Source: Caballeronia sp. SBC1 (GTDB lineage Bacteria; Pseudomonadota; Gammaproteobacteria; Burkholderiales; Burkholderiaceae). From it: 64,000 nt of DNA. The position numbers and the translations under genes are program-made. Shown piece after piece: positions 34,238 through 43,590 of this stretch. Location: the NCBI RefSeq assembly GCF_011493005.1, contig NZ_CP049156.1, positions 1,984,001-2,048,000 of the forward strand. Reading direction: 5' to 3'. The notes under the pieces were generated by a model. It searched no databases. It had not been told where the DNA came from and was given only the letters and a program-made list of their open reading frames with translations. Each line of letters opens with the position of its first letter. The first letter of the stretch is position 1.

Positions 34238-35187
34238 CGGGAATCCCTGAGCCGCAATGCGCGGCTGCGAATATAGAAGACCGGCGCGAGAATCGCGAGC
34301 ACGGTCACGAGAAGAACGATAGACGCCGCCGACGCCAGCCCAAGATTCGCGCGTCCGAACAAGTAATCCATGATGAACTTCGCGGGCACTTCGCTGGCCG
34401 TGCCGGGGCCGCCTTGCGTCATGGCGACCACCGCATCGTAGAGTTTGATGACCATCACGAACAGCAGGATAAAGGCCGTTGAAATGGACGCGCCGAGCAT
34501 GGGAATGACAATACTGACGTAGACACGCCAGCGCGGAATGCCATCTATGCGCGCCGCCTTCCAGATCTCTTCATCAATGCCGCGCAGCCCCGCGAGCAAC
34601 AGCGCCATCACGAGTCCCGACGCCTGCCAGACCGTTGCAATCACCAGCGTGTAGATCACGCGATCCTGATCGACGATCCAGTCGAAGCGTGCGTGCGTGA
34701 ACCCGATCCGGTGCAGCACTTCCTGAATGCCCAGTTCCGGATTCAGGATCCACTGCCACACGAGCCCCGTTGCCACGAACGACATGGCGTACGGATACAG
34801 GAAGACCGTGCGCAGCGCGCCCTCCGCCACCACCTTCTGATCGATAAACACCGCCAGCAGCAAGCCGATCGCGAGGCATATGACGATGAAAAAAACCCCA
34901 TAGATCACGATGTTTTGCAGCGACAGCATCCACCGGTCGTTATTGAAAAGCCGCACGTATTGCGACACGCCCGCAAAACTATTCGACGCGAACGTGCGCG
35001 AGTTCGTGAACGACGTGCGCAAGCTCCATAACATCGTACCCAGATAGGCGAACACCACGGTGAGCGCCATCGGCAGCAACGCAATATAGGCTGCCAGCGC
35101 AAACCGCTTCCTCAGCGGTTTGCGCTTCACGTGGCCGGCCGGCGCGCGCAAGGTTTTGCCGGCAGGCGCATACGTCCTCACAGCCAT
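34234..35187 (-). CDS. Sugar ABC transporter permease (MalF/UgpA-like)
   Basis: This permease has 317 residues with a basic cytoplasmic N-terminus (GHVKRKPLRKRFALAAYIAL). TM segments include IVIYGVFFIVICLAIGLLLA and a final AASIVLLVTVLAILAPVFYI. The coupling loop IWKAARIDGIPRWRVYVSIV and the preceding ATVWQASGLVMALLLAGLRG identify the family. The start codon shares one base with the stop of the binding-protein gene (TGATG), so translation is coupled. Confidence 0.92.
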   Translation of the reverse strand: MAVRTYAPAGKTLRAPAGHVKRKPLRKRFALAAYIALLPMALTVVFAYLGTMLWSLRTSFTNSRTFASNSFAGVSQYVRLFNNDRWMLSLQNIVIYGVFFIVICLAIGLLLAVFIDQKVVAEGALRTVFLYPYAMSFVATGLVWQWILNPELGIQEVLHRIGFTHARFDWIVDQDRVIYTLVIATVWQASGLVMALLLAGLRGIDEEIWKAARIDGIPRWRVYVSIVIPMLGASISTAFILLFVMVIKLYDAVVAMTQGGPGTASEVPAKFIMDYLFGRANLGLASAASIVLLVTVLAILAPVFYIRSRALRLRDSR

Positions 35188-36422
35188 CAGCTTTTCAGCC
35201 CGCTGGCGAAGGCCTTTTGCGCATCCTCCACCGACTGGTTCTTGTTCCAGAAGTTGGTGATGACATCCTGCAACGCACCGTTGATATCAGGCGGCGTCAG
35301 CATTTCTGGATTCGGCAACTGCCGCGACTTGTCCTTCATGATCGCGATGCCCTCCTTCGCACACATGTCGAGACTCGAATCGTTGATGTCCGATCGAATC
35401 GGAATCGAACCCTTCTTCGCGCTGAACGCGACCTGGGCAGCCGGCGATGTCATGACCGTCGCCAGCAGTTTTTGCGCCTTGACCGCGTTGGGGTCGTCGG
35501 TCTTCGGGAAGACAAACGCGTCGCCGGCGACCAGATACGGCGAATGCGGGCCGAAGCCCGGGAAGCAACCGAAGTCCTTGCCGGCCGTTTGATTGGCGGC
35601 GACGAACTCGCCCTTCGCCCAGTCGCCCATGATCTGCACGCCAGCCTTGCCCGAGATCACCAGCGCAGTGGCGTCGTTCCAGTTGCGGCCCGGCGAGCCC
35701 GGATCAATATAGTTATGCAGGCGCTTGAACTGCGTCAGCACTTTCTTGAACGCATCGGACTTGACCGCGTTCACATCGCGATCGCGATACACCTTCAAAT
35801 AAAGGTCCGGGCCGCCGACATCGGCGAACACGGCGTCGAAGGTGATCTTTTCCTGCCATGCCTGACCACCGAGCGCGAGCGGAATCACACCGGCCGCTTT
35901 CAGCTTGTCGAGATCCGCGATGAACTCATCGTAGTTGGCCGGCTCCTTCGTGATGCCGGCCTTCTGGAACGCCGGCTTCGAATAGAAGAACCATGCAGGC
36001 ATGTGGATGTCCACGGGCGCCGCGTAGTAATGCCCGTTCGACTTGATGCTTTCAATGATTGACACCGGGAAGATCTTGTCCCAGTTCTCCTTGGCCGCCA
36101 CATCGTCCACGTTGTTCAGCAACCCCTGGTCGATGATGTCGTGGAATTGCTTCGACGTATTGAACTGCGCGGCGGTCGGCGGATCACCGCCCATGATGCG
36201 GTTGATTGCCGTGGAGCGCGCCTGGTCCGCGCCGGCCACGGCCTGGTCGATCCACAATCCACCCGCCTTGTTATAGGCATCGGCGAACTGCTTGATGGCC
36301 GCTGACTCGCCACCCGATGTCCACCAGTGGATCACGGTCGCTTTCAACGGATCGGCGTGCGCGGCGCTGCTCGCCACAACGGCTGCGATGACACTGACCA
36401 CCAGTTTCTTCATGCTGTTCAT
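35187..36422 (-). CDS. Sugar ABC transporter substrate-binding protein
   Basis: This family 1 solute-binding protein has 411 residues. A signal peptide, MKKLVVSVIAAVVASSAAHA, is followed by DPLKATVIHWWTSGGESAAI, a typical mature start. Features include FNTSKQFHDIIDQGLLNNVD, GVQIMGDWAKGEFVAANQTA and FGCFPGFGPHSPYLVAGDAF, as in glucose/cello-oligosaccharide-type receptors. GGAGGAGACTCA precedes ATG 36422. It is the first transporter gene after the beta-glucosidase gene. The substrate is probably a beta-glucoside or glucose, inferred from the neighbour. An inverted repeat lies just upstream. Confidence 0.92.
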   Translation of the reverse strand: MNSMKKLVVSVIAAVVASSAAHADPLKATVIHWWTSGGESAAIKQFADAYNKAGGLWIDQAVAGADQARSTAINRIMGGDPPTAAQFNTSKQFHDIIDQGLLNNVDDVAAKENWDKIFPVSIIESIKSNGHYYAAPVDIHMPAWFFYSKPAFQKAGITKEPANYDEFIADLDKLKAAGVIPLALGGQAWQEKITFDAVFADVGGPDLYLKVYRDRDVNAVKSDAFKKVLTQFKRLHNYIDPGSPGRNWNDATALVISGKAGVQIMGDWAKGEFVAANQTAGKDFGCFPGFGPHSPYLVAGDAFVFPKTDDPNAVKAQKLLATVMTSPAAQVAFSAKKGSIPIRSDINDSSLDMCAKEGIAIMKDKSRQLPNPEMLTPPDINGALQDVITNFWNKNQSVEDAQKAFASGLKS

Positions 36423-36450
36423 TGAGTCTCCTCCGGGCTATGTCTTCTAT

Positions 36451-36476
36451 TTGGACCTGTAGTCCATAGGGTCCAA
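36451..36476. repeat. Small inverted repeat between the GH1 and binding-protein genes
   Basis: TTGGACC (36451-36457) pairs with GGTCCAA (36470-36476) around a 12-nt loop, 29-54 bp upstream of the binding-protein ATG. There is no T-run. It could be an operator or an mRNA structure setting the ratio between the glucosidase and transporter messages. Confidence 0.4.
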
Positions 36477-36505
36477 CGGCTTCGGTATTGAAATCGAACC
36501 GCGGG

Positions 36506-37891
36506 TCAGGCGCTCGCGTTTGCGTTGCGCTCTTGAAGGAACTTCGCAATCAGTTCAGCGCTGTGTTTCATGGTGCGTTTCTGCGTCTTGTAGTCGACAT
36601 GAAACACACCGAAGCGACGTTCATAACCGAAGGCCCATTCGAAGTTATCCATCAGCGACCAGATGAAATAGCCGCGTATGTCGACACCGGCTTTGATCGC
36701 GCTATCCACGGCGGCCAGATGGCGCTTGAGGAACGAGATGCGCTGCGGATCATCGACGCGTCCATCGACCACCTTGTCATCCGACGCCATGCCGTTTTCA
36801 GTGATGTAGATCGGCGGCAGTGACGGATACGTCTTGTTGAATCCGATCAGCAGGTCGCGTAAGCCATCGGGATGAATCTCCCAGCCCATCTGCGTGCGCT
36901 CAACGCCTGGCAATGGCACTTCCGTGAAACCATGCGCGCCGTCGCTCTTCACGTTCGTGCGGAAGTAATAGTTGATGCCGAGGAAATCGAGCGGTGTACC
37001 GATGGTGTCCATATCGCCGTCGAGCACCAGCGGCTCGGTGCCCGGCCATAGCTCGAAAAGGTCCTTCGGATAAGCCTTTTTCAACAACGGGTCCAGTATC
37101 CACGCGTTGTGCTGGACTTCAAAAAGATGCGCGGCGCGTACGTCGGCTTCGCTGTTGGTGTCAGGGGTACCGCGGCCCACATTCGCGACAATGCCCTTGA
37201 GCGACGCCGGATCGTTAGCCCGCAGGACCGGCACGGCGGTACCGTGCGCGAGCAGCAGATGATGCATGGCCTGGGTCGCGTAGCGGCCGTTCGCCAGACC
37301 CGGCGCATGATGGCCGTTGCCATAGCCGAGGTACGCAGAACACCAGGGTTCGTTGAGCGTGGCCCAGGCATCGACCTGGCCGCTCAGTTCGCGGCTCATC
37401 AGGTCGACGTAGTCAGCGAAGCGATGCACAACGTCACGATTCAGCCAACCGCCGCGGTCTTCCAGATATTGCGGCAAGTCCCAGTGATAAAGCGTGACGA
37501 AAGTCTTGAGCCCCTTCTCTTTCAGCCGCCCGATCAGGCGCTTGTAAAAGTCGATGCCCTTCTGGTTCGAACGCCCTGCTTCATCCATCACGCGCGGCCA
37601 TGCGATGGATAGACGATACCCATCAACATTAAGCGCGGAAAGCAAGTCGAGGTCCGATTCCCACCGATGATAGTGATCGCAAGCGACCGCGCCGGTGTCG
37701 CCGGCCAGCACTTTGCCGGGCGTGGCCGAGAACGTGTCCCAGATCGACGGGAGCCTGCCGTCTTCGTTGACGGCGCCTTCGATCTGATAGGAGGCGGTTG
37801 CTGCGCCGAGCAGAAAGTCTCGTCGCCAGAGGGCTGAATCGGAGGGTGGGGAAAACGGATCGCTGGAGACAACGGATGCGTCGAGTGCCAC
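36506..37891 (-). CDS. GH1 family beta-glucosidase
   Basis: This cytoplasmic glycoside hydrolase has 461 residues, the usual GH1 length. The N-terminus has FLLGAATASYQIEGAVNEDG and PSIWDTFSATPGKV. The acid/base Glu is in WATLNEPWCSAYLGY and the nucleophile Glu in PPIYITENGM; the C-terminal ISFLKRHLAAVDSAIKAGVD and WSLMDNFEWAFGYERRFG complete the signature. GTG 37891 was chosen because AGGAG lies 5 nt upstream; an earlier in-frame start would place the LacI-type palindrome inside the gene. No signal peptide, so it hydrolyses imported beta-glucosides. Confidence 0.93.
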   Translation of the reverse strand: MALDASVVSSDPFSPPSDSALWRRDFLLGAATASYQIEGAVNEDGRLPSIWDTFSATPGKVLAGDTGAVACDHYHRWESDLDLLSALNVDGYRLSIAWPRVMDEAGRSNQKGIDFYKRLIGRLKEKGLKTFVTLYHWDLPQYLEDRGGWLNRDVVHRFADYVDLMSRELSGQVDAWATLNEPWCSAYLGYGNGHHAPGLANGRYATQAMHHLLLAHGTAVPVLRANDPASLKGIVANVGRGTPDTNSEADVRAAHLFEVQHNAWILDPLLKKAYPKDLFELWPGTEPLVLDGDMDTIGTPLDFLGINYYFRTNVKSDGAHGFTEVPLPGVERTQMGWEIHPDGLRDLLIGFNKTYPSLPPIYITENGMASDDKVVDGRVDDPQRISFLKRHLAAVDSAIKAGVDIRGYFIWSLMDNFEWAFGYERRFGVFHVDYKTQKRTMKHSAELIAKFLQERNANASA

Positions 37892-37914
37892 GAGGACTCC
37901 TGGTGAGCGGTGGA

Positions 37915-37930
37915 GTGGAAGCGCTTCCAC
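37915..37930. promoter_or_regulatory. LacI-type operator of the beta-glucosidase/transporter operon
   Basis: GTGGAAGCGCTTCCAC is a perfect 16-bp palindrome with the CG-centred AAGCGCTT core common to LacI/GalR operators and close to the published CelR site TGGGAGCGCTCCCA. It lies 12 bp downstream of the predicted -10 element, overlapping the expected transcription start, a classic repressor position. The LacI protein at 30206-31228 is the likely ligand-responsive partner. Confidence 0.75.
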
Positions 37931-37942
37931 AAGCGCCTGCGA

Positions 37943-37972
37943 ACGATAGCAGCGCCGAATTGGCGGGGACAA
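37943..37972 (-). promoter_or_regulatory. Predicted promoter of the beta-glucosidase operon
   Basis: On the minus strand, TTGTCC (37972-37967) and TATCGT (37948-37943) are 18 bp apart, a moderate sigma-70 match placed directly upstream of the LacI-type operator and about 50 bp before the GTG start. Confidence 0.45.
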
Positions 37973-38106: not shown

Positions 38107-39327
38107 TCACTCACACGGTATCCGTGCCACAAAACACGTCCCCGTCTCCGCCGATGAACTCACGGACAACATGCCACCGTGCGCCTTGACGATCTGCGAG
38201 CAAATATAGAGTCCCAACCCGAGGCCCCCGCCCGGCTGGCTGGTCGCCGGCCGCCAATACGGTTCGAAGACTTTTTCCAGGTCTTGCGGCGCGATCGGTG
38301 CACCTAGATTAGAGACCGAGATCGCAAGCGCGCCTGCATCGACCGATACCACCACCCGCACCGGTTGATCCGGCGAGCCGTGCGTCAGCGCATTGGCGAG
38401 CAGGTTGGACAGCAATTGCTGGATGCGCCCACGGTCGCAGTGGATGCAGCCGTCCACCGCGATCTGTTCCAGGACAACGCGTCCCGGATTCGCATCGCGC
38501 AGTTCCGTGACCACATGGCGCAGCGAATCGGCGAGATCGTCAACCGGAGCAAGCGACACGCCAATACCCGCACCAAGCCGGCCACGGGCGAAGTCGAGCA
38601 CGTCGTCTATTAGCCGCGACATGCGCTGCGTCGTCGCCCGCAACCGCGTGCCGATGCTCACCAGTTCCGGTTCGCTGCTGCGTCGCGCCAGCCATTCCGC
38701 GGTCGCGCCCACGGCGGCAAGCGGATTACGCAGATCGTGGCCGAGCACGGCGATGAACTGCTCGCGCAACTCGGCGGTCGCCCGCTCGTTGAGGAGTGCG
38801 GCTTCGGTCGCCGAGCGCTCGTTCTCGCTCTCCAGTTGCAGTGCGATCAGTTCTGCGAAGAGCGTGAACATGGTCAGCGTTCGTGCATCCGATACCAGCG
38901 CGGGACGTGGATCGATTGCGCACAAATTGCCGAAATAGTCGCCGTTCGGAAGAATGATTGGCACCGAGATATAACTCTCGATGTTGTAGATGCGTGGCGT
39001 ATGGTGGTCGCGGTAGACCGGATCGGTGCTCGCATGGTCAATAGCAACAGGCCGGCGCATGGCGCGAGACTCACTGCACAGCGTGGTGTGGACATCGAGC
39101 TGGCCGCCAGGCAAGAGCCCGAAGTGAATGTCGTCCTGCACGGCACAGGCGGTCCATGTTCCCTCGGTGACGCGCGCCACCGCCGCGAAACCGAGGCCGG
39201 TGTTTTTGCAGATCACGCGCAGCATGGACGGAACGGCGCCGATCCGGCCGACAGTGGCCACATCGCGAGCTATGGCTTCGTCGCTGTCGTCCATGGTGGC
39301 CTGCAAAACTCCGGAAACAGGGTTCAA
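38107..39327 (-). CDS. GAF-domain sensor histidine kinase
   Basis: This soluble kinase has about 406 residues. An N-terminal GAF domain (about 20-180) includes SMLRVICKNTGLGFAAVARV and SYISVPIILPNGDYFGNLCA. The H-box is FIAVLGHDLRNPLAAVGATA, the N-box LLSNLLANALTHGS, and the G-boxes LGLGLYICSQIVKAHGG. No membrane segment is present. TTG 39327 is chosen because GAGAGG lies 7 nt upstream; ATG 39294 (MDDSDEAIARD) is the main alternative. It is divergent from the kaiC gene across about 220 bp and may feed the same pathway. No separate response regulator gene is adjacent. Confidence 0.88.
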   Translation of the reverse strand: MNPVSGVLQATMDDSDEAIARDVATVGRIGAVPSMLRVICKNTGLGFAAVARVTEGTWTACAVQDDIHFGLLPGGQLDVHTTLCSESRAMRRPVAIDHASTDPVYRDHHTPRIYNIESYISVPIILPNGDYFGNLCAIDPRPALVSDARTLTMFTLFAELIALQLESENERSATEAALLNERATAELREQFIAVLGHDLRNPLAAVGATAEWLARRSSEPELVSIGTRLRATTQRMSRLIDDVLDFARGRLGAGIGVSLAPVDDLADSLRHVVTELRDANPGRVVLEQIAVDGCIHCDRGRIQQLLSNLLANALTHGSPDQPVRVVVSVDAGALAISVSNLGAPIAPQDLEKVFEPYWRPATSQPGGGLGLGLYICSQIVKAHGGMLSVSSSAETGTCFVARIPCE

Positions 39328-39549
39328 GATTCTACCTCTCAGTGCTCGATATTTTTTGTTCGGTGCTGCGGTCAATTGTACGGATCAAGATGCCCGCGAC
39401 AAGGGCTGGAGACACGGTTGGATCGTAATCTTCTGGATTGCATAGTGCGTACCGCGATGCCAAGATGCGCTGTCGCCATTGACCCATTGGCGCAGGTATC
39501 GAGCCGGGGGCGGCCGGTGCCTTCCTGTTAAACCTTACAAAGAAAAACA

Positions 39550-41232
39550 ATGACCGGTGCAGCGCTTTCAAAATCGCCGACAGGCATTTCAGGCTTTGAC
39601 GACGTCACCCTCGGCGGGTTGCCAGCGGGCCGTCCCACCCTGATGTGCGGCGCGGCGGGATGCGGCAAGACCCTGTTCGCCATGACGTTCCTCGTGGAAG
39701 GCGTGTTGAAGTACGGCGAACCTGGCGTGCTGGTGAGCTTCGAGGAATCGGCGGAGGACCTGGCCGCGAACGTGGCGTCGCTTGGCTATGACGTGATGTC
39801 GATGATCGACCAGAAGAAACTCGCCATAGATCACGTCAAGATCGATCCGGCGGGAATCGAAAACACCGGTGAATATGACCTCGAAGGCCTGTTCGTGCGG
39901 CTCGACTACGCCATCAAAAGCGTGAACGCAAAGCGTGTCGTACTCGATACCCTCGAAGCACTGTTCGCCAGTTTCCCCGACGCCATCTTGCTGCGCGCCG
40001 AGTTGCGGTGCCTGTTCGACTGGCTTAAAGAGCGCGGCGTCACTGCCATTGTGACCGCGGAACGTGGAATCGGGGATCCGAACCAATTGACGCGGCACGG
40101 CATTGAGGAATATGTGTCCGACTGCGTGATCCTGCTCGATAACCGGGTCGAAAACCAAGTCACCACGCGGCGCTTGAGGATCGTCAAATATCGCGGCTCG
40201 GCGCATGGGACCAACGAATACCCGTTTCTTATCGATACCACCGGCATCAGCGTCCTTCCCATTACCTCAGCCGGTCTGGCGCACCTGACGTCGAGCGATG
40301 TCATCTCCACGGGCATCGCGGATCTCGACTCCATGCTGGGCGTGGGCGGTTATTTCGTCGGCTCCAGCGTACTTGTGTCGGGACTCGCGGGAACGGGCAA
40401 AACTACCTTTGCCGCGAAGTTCGTCGAAGCCCGCTGCAAGCTCGGCGAACGCACGCTCTGGTTCGCGTTTGAAGAGTCGCCCGAACAGATCGTGCGCAAC
40501 ATGCGCTCGGTGGGCGTGGATCTTGCGCACTTTCTGGGGGATACGCTCAGGATTGAATCTGCGCGGCCCAGCTTTTTCGGGTTGGAAATGCATTTGGCGC
40601 GGATGGTTCGCGACATCGACCTGTTCACGCCGTCCGCCGTGGTGATCGACCCAATTTCCTCGCTTCGCGGCGTGGAGTCGGAAGTGCACGCGACGCTGTT
40701 GCGACTCGTCGATCTCCTCAAATCCCGTGGCGTTACGGCAGTTTTTACAAGTCTCACCAGTACCGACCAGGCGTCCAGCGTGAACGACCGCAGCATTTCA
40801 TCGTTGATGGATACCTGGATTTCGCTGTCGCATATTGAAACGAACGGCGAGCGCAACCGGCTTGTCTACGTGCTGAAATCGCGTGGCATGGATCACTCGA
40901 ACCAGGTCCGCGAGTATCAGATCAGCAATGGGGGAATCGCCATGGTGCCGGCTTACGTAGGCGCAGGCGGCGTGCTGACAGGTTCCGCACGGCTCGCGCA
41001 GGAAGCGCAGGAACGAGACGAATCCGCCGCACGCGACCAGCTTGTGATGCAAAAGAAGCGCGAGCTCGCAAGACGCCGCGAAGCGGTCGAGCATCAGGTC
41101 GCAGAACTGCAATCGGCGCTCGATGCTGAAGCGTTGGAACTCGATGCGCTGATTGAGCAAAGCAATGAACACAAGCGTCAGCTGGACGCCGACCGTACCC
41201 GGATGGCACAACTGCGGCGATCGAAAAAATGA
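39550..41232 (+). CDS. kaiC: KaiC-family double RecA ATPase
   Basis: This KaiC-like protein has 560 residues and two RecA-type domains. CI has Walker A GAAGCGKT at 34-41 and [19 protein letters not shown] has Walker A GLAGTGKT near 278-285 and [15 protein letters not shown], so both paired catalytic glutamates are present. The segment matching the cyanobacterial phosphorylation loop reads [14 protein letters not shown]: the positions of S431 and T432 are Ser-Ser, and that of T426 is Asn. A C-terminal coiled coil of about 75 residues (from about 485, [20 protein letters not shown]) replaces the usual A-loop tail. It overlaps the first kaiB by 4 bp. It acts as an ATPase and probably an autokinase in stress or time signalling. 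Confidence 0.92.
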
Positions 41233-41576
41233 CCGAACAGGACTCGTCCGCGCCGGCGGAACACGAAACGGCCCCCGCAGGCACGCCCGCCGCTTGCTCG
41301 TATTTGCTGCGCTTATATGTGGCGGGGGAAACGCCCAAATCGATGGCCGCCATTCGCAACCTGCGTGCGCTCTGCGCCACGCACCTGGCCGGCCAGTATT
41401 CGATCGAAGTCATTGATCTGCGCGTGAACCCGCAGCTTGCAGCCGCTGACCAGATCCTTGCGATACCGACCGTCGTGCGGCATCTGCCCGCGCCGCTCAG
41501 GAAAGTGATCGGCGATTTGTCCAATACCGAGCGCGTGCTAGTCGGCCTCGATATCTGGCCAAAGGACTCTTCGTGA
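41229..41576 (+). CDS. kaiB: KaiB-domain protein (first copy)
   Basis: This thioredoxin-like KaiB protein has 115 residues. After a Pro/Ala-rich lead of about 20 residues comes [20 protein letters not shown], then [20 protein letters not shown], the cis-proline region [12 protein letters not shown] and [20 protein letters not shown]. KaiB binds phosphorylated KaiC in cyanobacteria; non-cyanobacterial KaiB proteins are found in kaiBC stress modules. The start overlaps the kaiC stop and the stop overlaps the second kaiB start, each by 4 bp. Confidence 0.9.
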
Positions 41577-41947
41577 GCGCCCTGTCCGTCGAAGCCGACG
41601 CTGGGGGCGGCGCAGCGCCTCCGCAGCCATCGGACACGCTTGTGCTGCGGCTGTACGTGACGGGCAATACGCTGCGCTCCACGCGTGCCGTCGACAACGC
41701 CCGGCGCTTGCTGGAAACCTATGCGGCAGGCCGCTTCGAGCTTGAAGTGATCGATATCTACCTGCATCCGGAAGCCGCGATCGCGGCTCAGATCATTGCC
41801 GCGCCGACGCTGGTGAAGCTGCGTCCAGGGCCCTCGCGAAGAGTGATCGGCGACCTGTCGGATTCGAACAAGGTGCTGGCCCTGCTCGGCGTGACGGTGT
41901 CGAACGTAACCGCGAATGCGTCCTCGGGCGTGTCCGTCAAACCCTGA
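41573..41947 (+). CDS. KaiB-domain protein (second copy)
   Basis: A second KaiB paralogue, 124 residues from GTG 41573, which overlaps the first kaiB stop (GTGA). The core is [60 protein letters not shown] and [14 protein letters not shown]. It has a Gly/Ala-rich lead and a Ser/Thr-rich tail not found in the first copy. The two share the fold but diverge at the surface, so they may bind different states or partners. It shares one base with the downstream kinase start (TGATG). Confidence 0.88.
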
Positions 41948-43590
41948 TGCGTATGTCCGATCAATCCTACCCCGCCTCACTGGAAACCGCGTCTATCGAG
42001 GAGCTGCGCGAGCGGCTGCGGGAAGCAGAAGATACCCTCGACGCCATCCGCAGCGGCGCGGTGGACGCCGTGGTGGTCGGCAGCGACGACGATCGCCGCA
42101 TCTACACGCTCGAGAGCGCGGACCGGCCGTACCGCGTGCTCGTGGAGCAGATGCAGGAAGGCGCGGTGATGCTCTCAGCGGACGGCACCATTCTCTACGC
42201 CAACGAACGTGCCGGGCAGTTGCTCGGCGCCCAGGTAGAGCACGTGGTTGGGTCCGCGTTCAGCGCTTTTGTGCTCGATGGCCAGCACGCGCGCCTGCAG
42301 GAATTGATCCGCGAAAGCGCTACCGGCACTGCCCGCGACGAACTGACGGTGCTGTCGGCCAATGGGGAAACACCCGTCTCTTGCAGCTTCAAGGCATTTG
42401 AAGCCGGCCGTGACCAGGACCGCCTGATCTGCGGCGTGATCTCCGATCTCTCGCAGCAACGGCAGATGGAAGCGCGCCTGCACCAAGCTCAGAAAATGGA
42501 GGCGGTCGGTCAGTTGACGGGCGGCCTGGCCCACGATTTCAACAACCTGCTGCAGGCCATTCACGGCAATCTCGAACTCGTGAAGCGCTCGCCGGCCGAT
42601 CCCGAACGCGTGCTGCGCTGGACCGGCAACGCCATGCGGGCCGTCAGCCGCGGCGCCAAGCTCACCGCCCAATTGCTGGCATTTTCGCGCTCTCAGAAAC
42701 TCGAATTGAAACCGGTTGGGCTGGCGGCGCTCGTACACGGCATGGCCGATCTGTTCGACCGCACGCTGGGCGCCGGGATCGACCTGCGACTGGAACTCGG
42801 CGACGACAACGCCCTGGTCGTGGCGGACCCGACCCAGCTCGAACTCGCGTTGCTCAACCTCGCAATCAACGCACGCGACGCGATGCCCACGGGCGGCGTG
42901 CTGCGCATCAGCACGTTAGCGTGGACGGTCACGGACGACCCCGATCTCGCCGATGGCGACTACGTGGAACTCAGCGTCGCCGATACAGGCACCGGCATGC
43001 CCGCCGATGTCGCGGCCCGGGCGTTCGAGCCGTTTTTTACCACCAAGGAACTCGGCGCGGGAACCGGTCTCGGCCTCGCCCAGGTGTACGGAATCTGCCA
43101 GCAGGCCGGCGGCCATGCACAGATCGAGAGCAGCCCGCGCGGCACGCGGGTTTCTTTGTTTCTGCGGCGTTCGCCCGCGGCAGCCGATGCACCGGACCCG
43201 TCGGGGGCGGCTATCGTCAATGCGAGCGACCGGAGTGCGCCGCGCATCCTGGTCGTCGACGATGATCCTGATGTTCGTACGTTCATGGTCGAAACGCTGG
43301 TCGCGCTGGGGTATCGCGTGGACTCGGCAGCAGGTGGGCGCGCGGCGCTCCACATGATGGCCAGCAATCCTCCCGACTTGCTGGTGCTGGACTTCGCGAT
43401 GCCGCATCTTGATGGCGCTACGGTAGCGAAACTGGCACGGTCCCAGGGTTTGCAGATGCCTATTGTCTTTGCGAGCGGTTACGCGGACACCTCCGCACTC
43501 GATGCCGCGATGGGCAACAATATCTCGCTGCTTCGAAAACCATTTTCTATCGGGAATTTGTCCGCGGTCGTTGCGGCGGCGTTGGGGTAA
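41947..43590 (+). CDS. Hybrid sensor histidine kinase/response regulator
   Basis: This soluble hybrid kinase has 547 residues. A coiled N-terminus (IEELRERLREAEDTLDAIRS) leads to a PAS domain (about 60-160; MQEGAVMLSADGTILYANER). The H-box is GGLAHDFNNLLQAIHGNLEL, a LytS/NtrB-like variant; ATPase boxes follow in LALLNLAINARDAMP and GAGTGLGLAQVYGICQQAGG. The C-terminal receiver starts ILVVDDDPDVRTFMVETL, with phospho-acceptor Asp in LLVLDFAMP and the Lys in LLRKPFSI. It has no DNA-binding output domain. It ends the kaiC-kaiB-kaiB operon, making it the likely partner for Kai signalling. Confidence 0.92.
   Translation: MRMSDQSYPASLETASIEELRERLREAEDTLDAIRSGAVDAVVVGSDDDRRIYTLESADRPYRVLVEQMQEGAVMLSADGTILYANERAGQLLGAQVEHVVGSAFSAFVLDGQHARLQELIRESATGTARDELTVLSANGETPVSCSFKAFEAGRDQDRLICGVISDLSQQRQMEARLHQAQKMEAVGQLTGGLAHDFNNLLQAIHGNLELVKRSPADPERVLRWTGNAMRAVSRGAKLTAQLLAFSRSQKLELKPVGLAALVHGMADLFDRTLGAGIDLRLELGDDNALVVADPTQLELALLNLAINARDAMPTGGVLRISTLAWTVTDDPDLADGDYVELSVADTGTGMPADVAARAFEPFFTTKELGAGTGLGLAQVYGICQQAGGHAQIESSPRGTRVSLFLRRSPAAADAPDPSGAAIVNASDRSAPRILVVDDDPDVRTFMVETLVALGYRVDSAAGGRAALHMMASNPPDLLVLDFAMPHLDGATVAKLARSQGLQMPIVFASGYADTSALDAAMGNNISLLRKPFSIGNLSAVVAAALG

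Follow-up and report, generated by a model that had tools for sequence, protein, structure and literature searches.

The window analysed here, a 64,000-nucleotide stretch of contig NZ_CP049156.1 of Caballeronia sp. SBC1, carries an operon of four genes encoding a KaiC, two KaiB proteins (designated KaiB-a and KaiB-b in gene order), and a hybrid histidine kinase (Table 1). The open reading frame (ORF) calls, all on the forward strand, overlapped by 4 bp at kaiC/kaiB-a, 4 bp at kaiB-a/kaiB-b, and 1 bp at kaiB-b/kinase. Pfam analysis detected PF06745 in two stretches of KaiC (352 bits), PF07689 in both KaiBs (81.9 and 79.6 bits; cut-off 27), and PAS, HisKA, HATPase_c, and Response_reg in the kinase, all above the Pfam cut-offs. 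Based on the ORF calls, Pfam, and matches to solved structures, a chance grouping or misannotation of the four genes was rejected. Relatives ranging from Proteobacteria to Bacteroidota and Methanoperedens had the same gene order, indicating that the operon is more than a chance arrangement. The comparisons were made with 81 loci, namely the window and 80 relatives found with KaiC peptides, of which the nearest by KaiC identity were those of Caballeronia sp. (94%) and Burkholderia sp. Leaf177 (84%).

The window KaiC has Walker A motifs at residues 34-41 (GAAGCGKT) and 278-285 (GLAGTGKT), catalytic glutamate pairs at 65/66 and 308/309, and Ser417/Ser418 aligned with the autophosphorylation sites; the Walker A lysines, the glutamate pairs, and the serine phosphosites were conserved in all 81 loci. 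The NCBIfam model NF006799 (KaiC) gave 695 bits against a cut-off of 408. The best solved relative was Rhodobacter sphaeroides KaiC (8dba), whose alignment included the C-terminal tail, whereas the alignments to the other full-length KaiC structures listed, R. sphaeroides entries aside, ended at 462-498 with at most 387 bits. With 80 residues beyond position 480, the window KaiC is of the solved R. sphaeroides type: two RecA domains, a Ser-Ser site, and a tail. The two kaiB genes were the only ones in the genome (8.85 Mb, 5 contigs), and PF07688 (KaiA) had no match in the same genome, the Synechococcus control being positive; the KaiA that belongs to a KaiABC oscillator is absent. These results bear out the initial annotation, made from the sequence alone, which had described four genes joined by small overlaps, a KaiC with two Walker A motifs and paired glutamates, two consecutive and different KaiBs, a PAS-HisKA-receiver hybrid kinase, and the lack of kaiA.

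Table 1 Features of the Kai operon in the window.
Feature	Position	Strand	Description
kaiC	39550-41232	+	560 aa ORF; double RecA-type, Ser417/Ser418 phosphosites, ~80-residue C-terminal coiled-coil tail (R. sphaeroides type); 8dba match 656 bits, residues 5-557
KaiC C-terminal coiled-coil tail	40990-41229	+	Residues after 480; feature accompanying the helix-PAS module
kaiB-a (first KaiB)	41229-41576	+	115 aa; class of R. sphaeroides KaiB; ground-state fold predicted with low confidence
kaiB-b (second KaiB)	41573-41947	+	124 aa, GTG start; separate, more variable class; fold-switched thioredoxin-like fold predicted with high core confidence
PAS-HisKA-HATPase-receiver hybrid histidine kinase	41947-43590	+	547 aa ORF
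Helix-PAS module of the kinase	41998-42462	+	Residues 18-172; common to the proteins after kaiB whatever the output domain

Subsequently, the protein encoded after kaiB was compared among the loci using a profile of residues 1-175 of the window kinase. This N-terminal part, a helix followed by a PAS domain (the helix-PAS module), was found directly after the last KaiB in 77 of the 81 loci, starting 52 to 206 bp past the KaiB domain. The match was partial in L011 (at a contig end), L061, and L088; in the profile search of the 81 loci no module was found after kaiB in L086 and L087, and L014 and L085 stop at the contig edge. The output domains behind the 77 modules, called by home-made profiles seeded from Pfam coordinates, with Pfam itself run on 10 of these proteins and on the window, were HisKA-HATPase-receiver in 47, HWE kinase in 11, HisKA-HATPase without receiver in 5 (L016 being cut), HisKA only in one, and an HD domain, which we read as HD-GYP-like, in one (L071). 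No output domain was called in the remaining 12, or 11 when the cut L011 is left aside; these were all from Bacteroidota, and only L050 among them was checked with Pfam. The effector-free proteins (L050, L052, L060, L062, L064-L067, L070, L072, and L080) are about 235 aa long, and in L065 a 694-aa ORF immediately follows. Thus, the co-conserved part after kaiB is the helix-PAS N-terminus and not the hybrid kinase. A conserved hybrid kinase as the key part was rejected, because only this N-terminus was common to the loci and the kinase part was replaced or absent elsewhere. The range of domains suggests that the module is plug-like, with different outputs attached in other species. In the window kinase itself, the motifs around His196, Asp482, and Lys531, residues whose roles we presume, were present.

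Alignment A1, comprising 46 of the 77 modules, was used for genome searches. In the genome of the window, its single match lay at the Kai operon. Among 58 genomes sampled from the genus, KaiB occurred in nine, and the module was found in the same nine, once each and adjoining KaiB. In 398 genomes of the phylum, there were 12 module matches in 11 genomes (E up to 1e-8); the 10 full-length matches all lay after KaiB, and the other two covered part of the PAS half only. Since KaiB occurred in 36 of these genomes, most KaiB genomes of the phylum sample have no module match. In the sample of 289 genomes from the class of G391, KaiB was present in 10, and all four module matches lay after KaiB; G391 belongs to both samples, so that one of the four module genomes was counted twice. 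At most 14 (phylum) or 19 (class) candidates were scored per genome, and these counts may therefore contain misses.

The module was accompanied by the KaiC tail. Among 34 KaiCs encoded beside KaiBs in the phylum sample, eight had 80-92 residues past position 480, all with a module, whereas 26 had 0-28 residues, and their loci showed only generic PAS matches, none beginning before profile position 12. A tailed KaiC is also encoded in the window and in G036, the remaining two genomes with a module in that sample. In the class sample, the KaiC alignments extended to 556-558 at three further module loci and ended at 463-484 at three module-free loci, and one locus (L148) had a broken KaiC. In total, a tailed KaiC was present at 13 of 13 full-length modules, although related genomes are not independent cases. 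The tail can occur without the module, because L147 has a tailed KaiC with a divergent KaiB and no module. In this count the KaiC fragments of L127 and L136 fell under the score limit, and L106, L109, L110, and L117 gave no KaiC match; the 80 relatives are uninformative on the frequency of the tail, because the KaiC search peptides included it. Given the KaiC core, module distances over 64 loci correlated with those of the tail (r 0.34) and of KaiB-a (r 0.29), for which the partial Mantel p values are optimistic with related sequences. Plasmid pB of R. sphaeroides 2.4.1 has the order kaiC, kaiB, HWE kinase, with the module present in the kinase (96 bits, profile 1-155); the KaiC of solved structure thus has a module-bearing kinase adjoining. 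The module was also found at all three other kaiC-kaiB plasmid loci examined (Pararhizobium, Rhizobium, and Falsirhodobacter), and a profile search of the kaiB-kaiC locus of Aquisphaera found none. A second kaiB context was seen in the phylum sample (L119-L138), where receiver genes are followed by kaiB and a tailless kaiC, often with another kaiB after kaiC.

Two kaiB genes were present in 66 of the 81 loci, three in one, and one in 14. In the KaiB tree, one split (support 0.75) separated the 67 first copies completely from 66 of the 67 second copies; the remaining second copy came from L061, an archaeal locus with three kaiBs ahead of the module-bearing kinase. The single KaiBs comprised 12 of the first class and two of the second (L012 and L071). 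Mean column identity was 65% in the first class and 48% in the second, calculated for 65 of the 66 two-kaiB loci because the second copy of L014 is cut. Ten alignment columns showed little overlap between the classes. Position 68, a reported fold determinant, did not differ clearly between them, and position 83 was V or I in 64 of 67 KaiB-a sequences and mixed in KaiB-b. Both window KaiBs scored below the equivalog cut-offs of NF006798 and TIGR02654. As judged from these sequences, the KaiBs are two old classes spread over bacteria and archaea.

The predicted folds of the two classes also differed. AlphaFold2 with class-only alignments gave the ground-state element order for KaiB-a with a weak predicted local distance difference test score (pLDDT) of 62, and the fold-switched order for KaiB-b with a core pLDDT of 91-96, each model representing a single state. 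With Foldseek and VIA-align, the structures nearest to the KaiB-b model were 5jwr, 4kun, 5jyt, and 8fwj, all fold-switched KaiBs, and those nearest to the KaiB-a model were 1r5p, 1wwj, 1vgl, 2qke, and 4kso, which are ground-state KaiBs. The SasA model NF006800, at scores far below its cut-off, matched every second copy (65 of 65) and 48 of the 65 first copies. Fold predictions from close sequences are reported to have agreed with experimental results for R. sphaeroides KaiB, Legionella KaiB, and KaiBTV-4 (PMC10808063), a parallel that is inexact because our class alignments contained 65 sequences and those described there ten. According to these models, the second class is apparently held in the fold-switched state, and KaiB-b looks like a detached sensor domain. 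KaiB-4 (KaiBTV-4) and Legionella KaiB share the predicted fold-switched state, 4kun coming out nearest to the KaiB-b model in one structural comparison, whereas KaiB-b forms a separate class inside kaiC operons, adjoining the output gene.

KaiB sequences inside chains of at least 293 aa were searched in a large protein database, with 39 hits for the KaiB-b query and 71 for the KaiB-a control; since the KaiB-b query alone is biased, both were combined into 100 distinct chains. Their arrangements were KaiC followed by KaiB-a in 58, KaiC by KaiB-b in one, KaiB-a by KaiB-b in eight, KaiB-b before the module or a kinase in 25, and KaiB-a before an output in nine. In multi-member or multi-contig clusters, the counts were nine for KaiB-b before an output, six for KaiC before KaiB-a, two for KaiB-a before an output, and one for KaiB-a before KaiB-b; P0132, which looks frameshifted (as does P0121), was counted in three of these categories. 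Much of this pattern is expected from gene order alone because neighbours fuse, and frameshifts may contribute as well. The repeated fusion clusters (P0144, P0148, P0153, and P0155; P0136 and P0138, with a weak module match of 72 bits; and P0150) are better evidence that KaiB-b can sit covalently on an output protein. In P0156 and P0202, the latter with eight member sequences, a KaiB of the first class is fused to the module, and a further domain is, from the listed Pfam accessions, presumably a sigma54-type activator. No clear KaiB-kinase fusion was found in the genus, phylum, and class genome samples, where the KaiB matches lay in open frames of at most 360 aa.

Natural losses of the first copy were seen. 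Only remnants of kaiB-a, differing in length, are left in L012 (9680-9796) and G036 (L097 and L100 are the loci of G031 and G036), and kaiB-b and the kinase are open. KaiC is complete in L012, and for G036 only its later part was covered. The DNA of G031 was identical to L012 over the stretch compared. The remnants perhaps derive from one old deletion, and from these sequences KaiB-a looks dispensable in L012 and G036.

Several genes near the operon and elsewhere in the genome were also noted. A GAF-HisKA kinase gene (window 38107-39375, reverse strand) is divergent from and adjoins kaiC; of the 80 relatives, L011 and L012 alone matched it at E<=1e-30. Beyond it, genes for an extracellular solute-binding protein and a GH1 glycosidase (window 35187-37972, reverse strand) lie upstream of kaiC, with no link seen. 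Two further double-domain KaiCs without kaiB or module are encoded on C5 at about 115 kb (L092) and C3 at about 330 kb (L093); the C5 gene overlaps one whose product contains, by eye, GGDEF-like and histidine-kinase-like sequence.

The operon arrangement is not new, and the window copy is an ordinary member of a known operon kind, in a host for which no earlier report of it was seen. In Methylorubrum extorquens AM1, a different organism and genus, the cluster named kaiC1-kaiB2-kaiB1-kaiR1, where kaiB2 is the first copy, has the same gene order and a KaiC1 phosphorylated on paired serines (PMC8069551), and our Methylorubrum loci (L079 and L083) likewise contain kaiC, two kaiBs, and a module-HisKA-HATPase-REC gene. 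Rhodopseudomonas palustris has kaiC, kaiB, and a PAS kinase (PMC4794148). The R. sphaeroides system (8dba, 8fwi, and 8fwj) shares the tailed KaiC with the SS site, the KaiB-a class, and a module-bearing kinase after kaiB, but it has only one KaiB, and its kinase is of the HWE type instead of a HisKA hybrid; the main text of PMC10076222 does not contain the term "histidine kinase". In 2011, kaiC-kaiB followed by a histidine kinase or a GGDEF/EAL protein had been noticed (PMC3164672), and the shared N-terminal module and the two KaiB classes are not mentioned in the cited portion of that paper. A search of open-licence papers gave none that describes the common module or its association with the tail, nor any in which the second KaiB of such operons is fold-switched. 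The new points are the two KaiB classes with different predicted folds, the KaiB-linked helix-PAS module with exchangeable outputs, the module-tail link, and the KaiB-b-module-kinase fusions.

The initial annotation had proposed that the kinase reads or sets the KaiC state in place of KaiA/SasA, and had made this depend on co-conservation of the kinase with kaiC and the two kaiBs. A Kai operon with a co-conserved signalling protein downstream was indeed found, so that this condition did not refute the proposal; the co-conserved part is, as described above, the N-terminus and not the hybrid kinase. By analogy with R. sphaeroides KaiC, whose tail makes a dodecamer, which autophosphorylates without KaiA, and whose system is driven by the ATP-to-ADP ratio (PMC10076222), it is more probable that the coiled-coil tail of KaiC itself stands in for KaiA than that the kinase does. 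The further idea that the two KaiBs serve two partners is plausible, because the two belong to distinct old classes whose predicted folds differ.

As for SasA, KaiB-b resembles its cyanobacterial sensor domain in the predicted thioredoxin-like fold and in being encoded just ahead of a histidine kinase, whereas KaiB-b is a separate gene product that would act in trans, and the kinase has a helix-PAS module and a receiver. No KaiB-like domain is fused N-terminally to a histidine kinase in the window, where the NF006800 score was 23 bits against a cut-off of 342. In the explanation that we prefer, and hold to be a real possibility just short of an even chance, the operon encodes an R. sphaeroides-type KaiBC system that works without KaiA, as a timer or as an energy-state switch, and feeds a dedicated phosphorelay through a split-SasA output. 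KaiC, as suggested by the R. sphaeroides protein, would autophosphorylate without KaiA and follow the ATP/ADP ratio, and KaiB-a, as the slow metamorphic KaiB, would set the phase of dephosphorylation. KaiB-b, held fold-switched, would read the CI ring of KaiC as the N-terminal domain of SasA does, competing with KaiB-a for KaiC. Through the helix-PAS module the kinase would be attached to the KaiC/KaiB-b complex, and it would pass the state on via its receiver domain to a histidine phosphotransfer (HPt) protein; KaiB-b and the kinase would in effect be a split SasA. Several observations weigh against this explanation, and its weakest step is the putative contact of KaiB-b with the kinase. Given the KaiC core, module and KaiB-b distances did not correlate (r -0.03, 64 loci), so that the mirror-tree test came out against a special KaiB-b/module pairing; KaiB-b is absent from most HWE loci (7 of 11); and SasA stood lower in the structural ranking of KaiB-b, level with plain thioredoxins, which fit as well.

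A stress or energy sensor without timing or hourglass function, in which KaiC phosphorylation or amount follows ATP/ADP, temperature, or ultraviolet (UV) light and tunes stress resistance via the kinase, with the KaiBs as modulators, overlaps with this explanation, since the biochemical chain is the same. It is somewhat unlikely: M. extorquens AM1, which shares the gene order, becomes more sensitive to UV when kaiC1 is lost, and its KaiC1 amount falls with growth temperature (PMC8069551), but KaiBC has been described in R. sphaeroides as an hourglass timer and in R. palustris as a proto-circadian timekeeper (PMC10076222, PMC4794148). We regard as unlikely that the kinase is an input, its PAS domain and receiver sensing redox or another signal and setting the KaiC/KaiB state. 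Its outline resembles CikA, which consists of a sensor, HisKA, HATPase, and a receiver, but the window receiver is unlike the CikA pseudo-receiver because it retains the Asp482 and Lys531 motifs. Moreover, the domains behind the module or a KaiB-module fusion include HD (L071) and the presumed sigma54-type activator (P0156 and P0202), which suits an output role better, even though the R. sphaeroides operon kinase has been suggested as a redox transducer (cited in PMC5520375). Improbable, finally, is a second kaiB that is a redundant duplicate affecting dosage only. Both KaiBs exceed the PF07689 cut-off and single-kaiB loci are common, but the two classes keep a fixed order and different predicted folds across bacteria and archaea with little overlap in the ten columns, and kaiB-b was retained where kaiB-a is a remnant.

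The preferred split-SasA explanation addresses the route from KaiBC systems beyond cyanobacteria to gene expression. In its general form, which we offer tentatively, KaiC outside cyanobacteria would signal through a split SasA, composed of a KaiB-b locked in the fold-switched state and an exchangeable helix-PAS docking module that evolved together with the KaiC tail. An equally tentative part of this proposal is that the docking module exchanges its partners among HisKA hybrid kinases, HWE kinases, HD proteins, sigma54-type activators, and effector-free adaptors. The cited part of PMC5520375 considers it very unlikely that KaiC stimulates SasA homologues beyond the cyanobacteria, because the KaiB-like domain is missing. 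If the split-SasA explanation is true, it contradicts the view that SasA-type coupling is confined to cyanobacteria: with KaiB-b as that domain in trans, the missing link would be encoded in the same operon, also in the tractable strain M. extorquens AM1.

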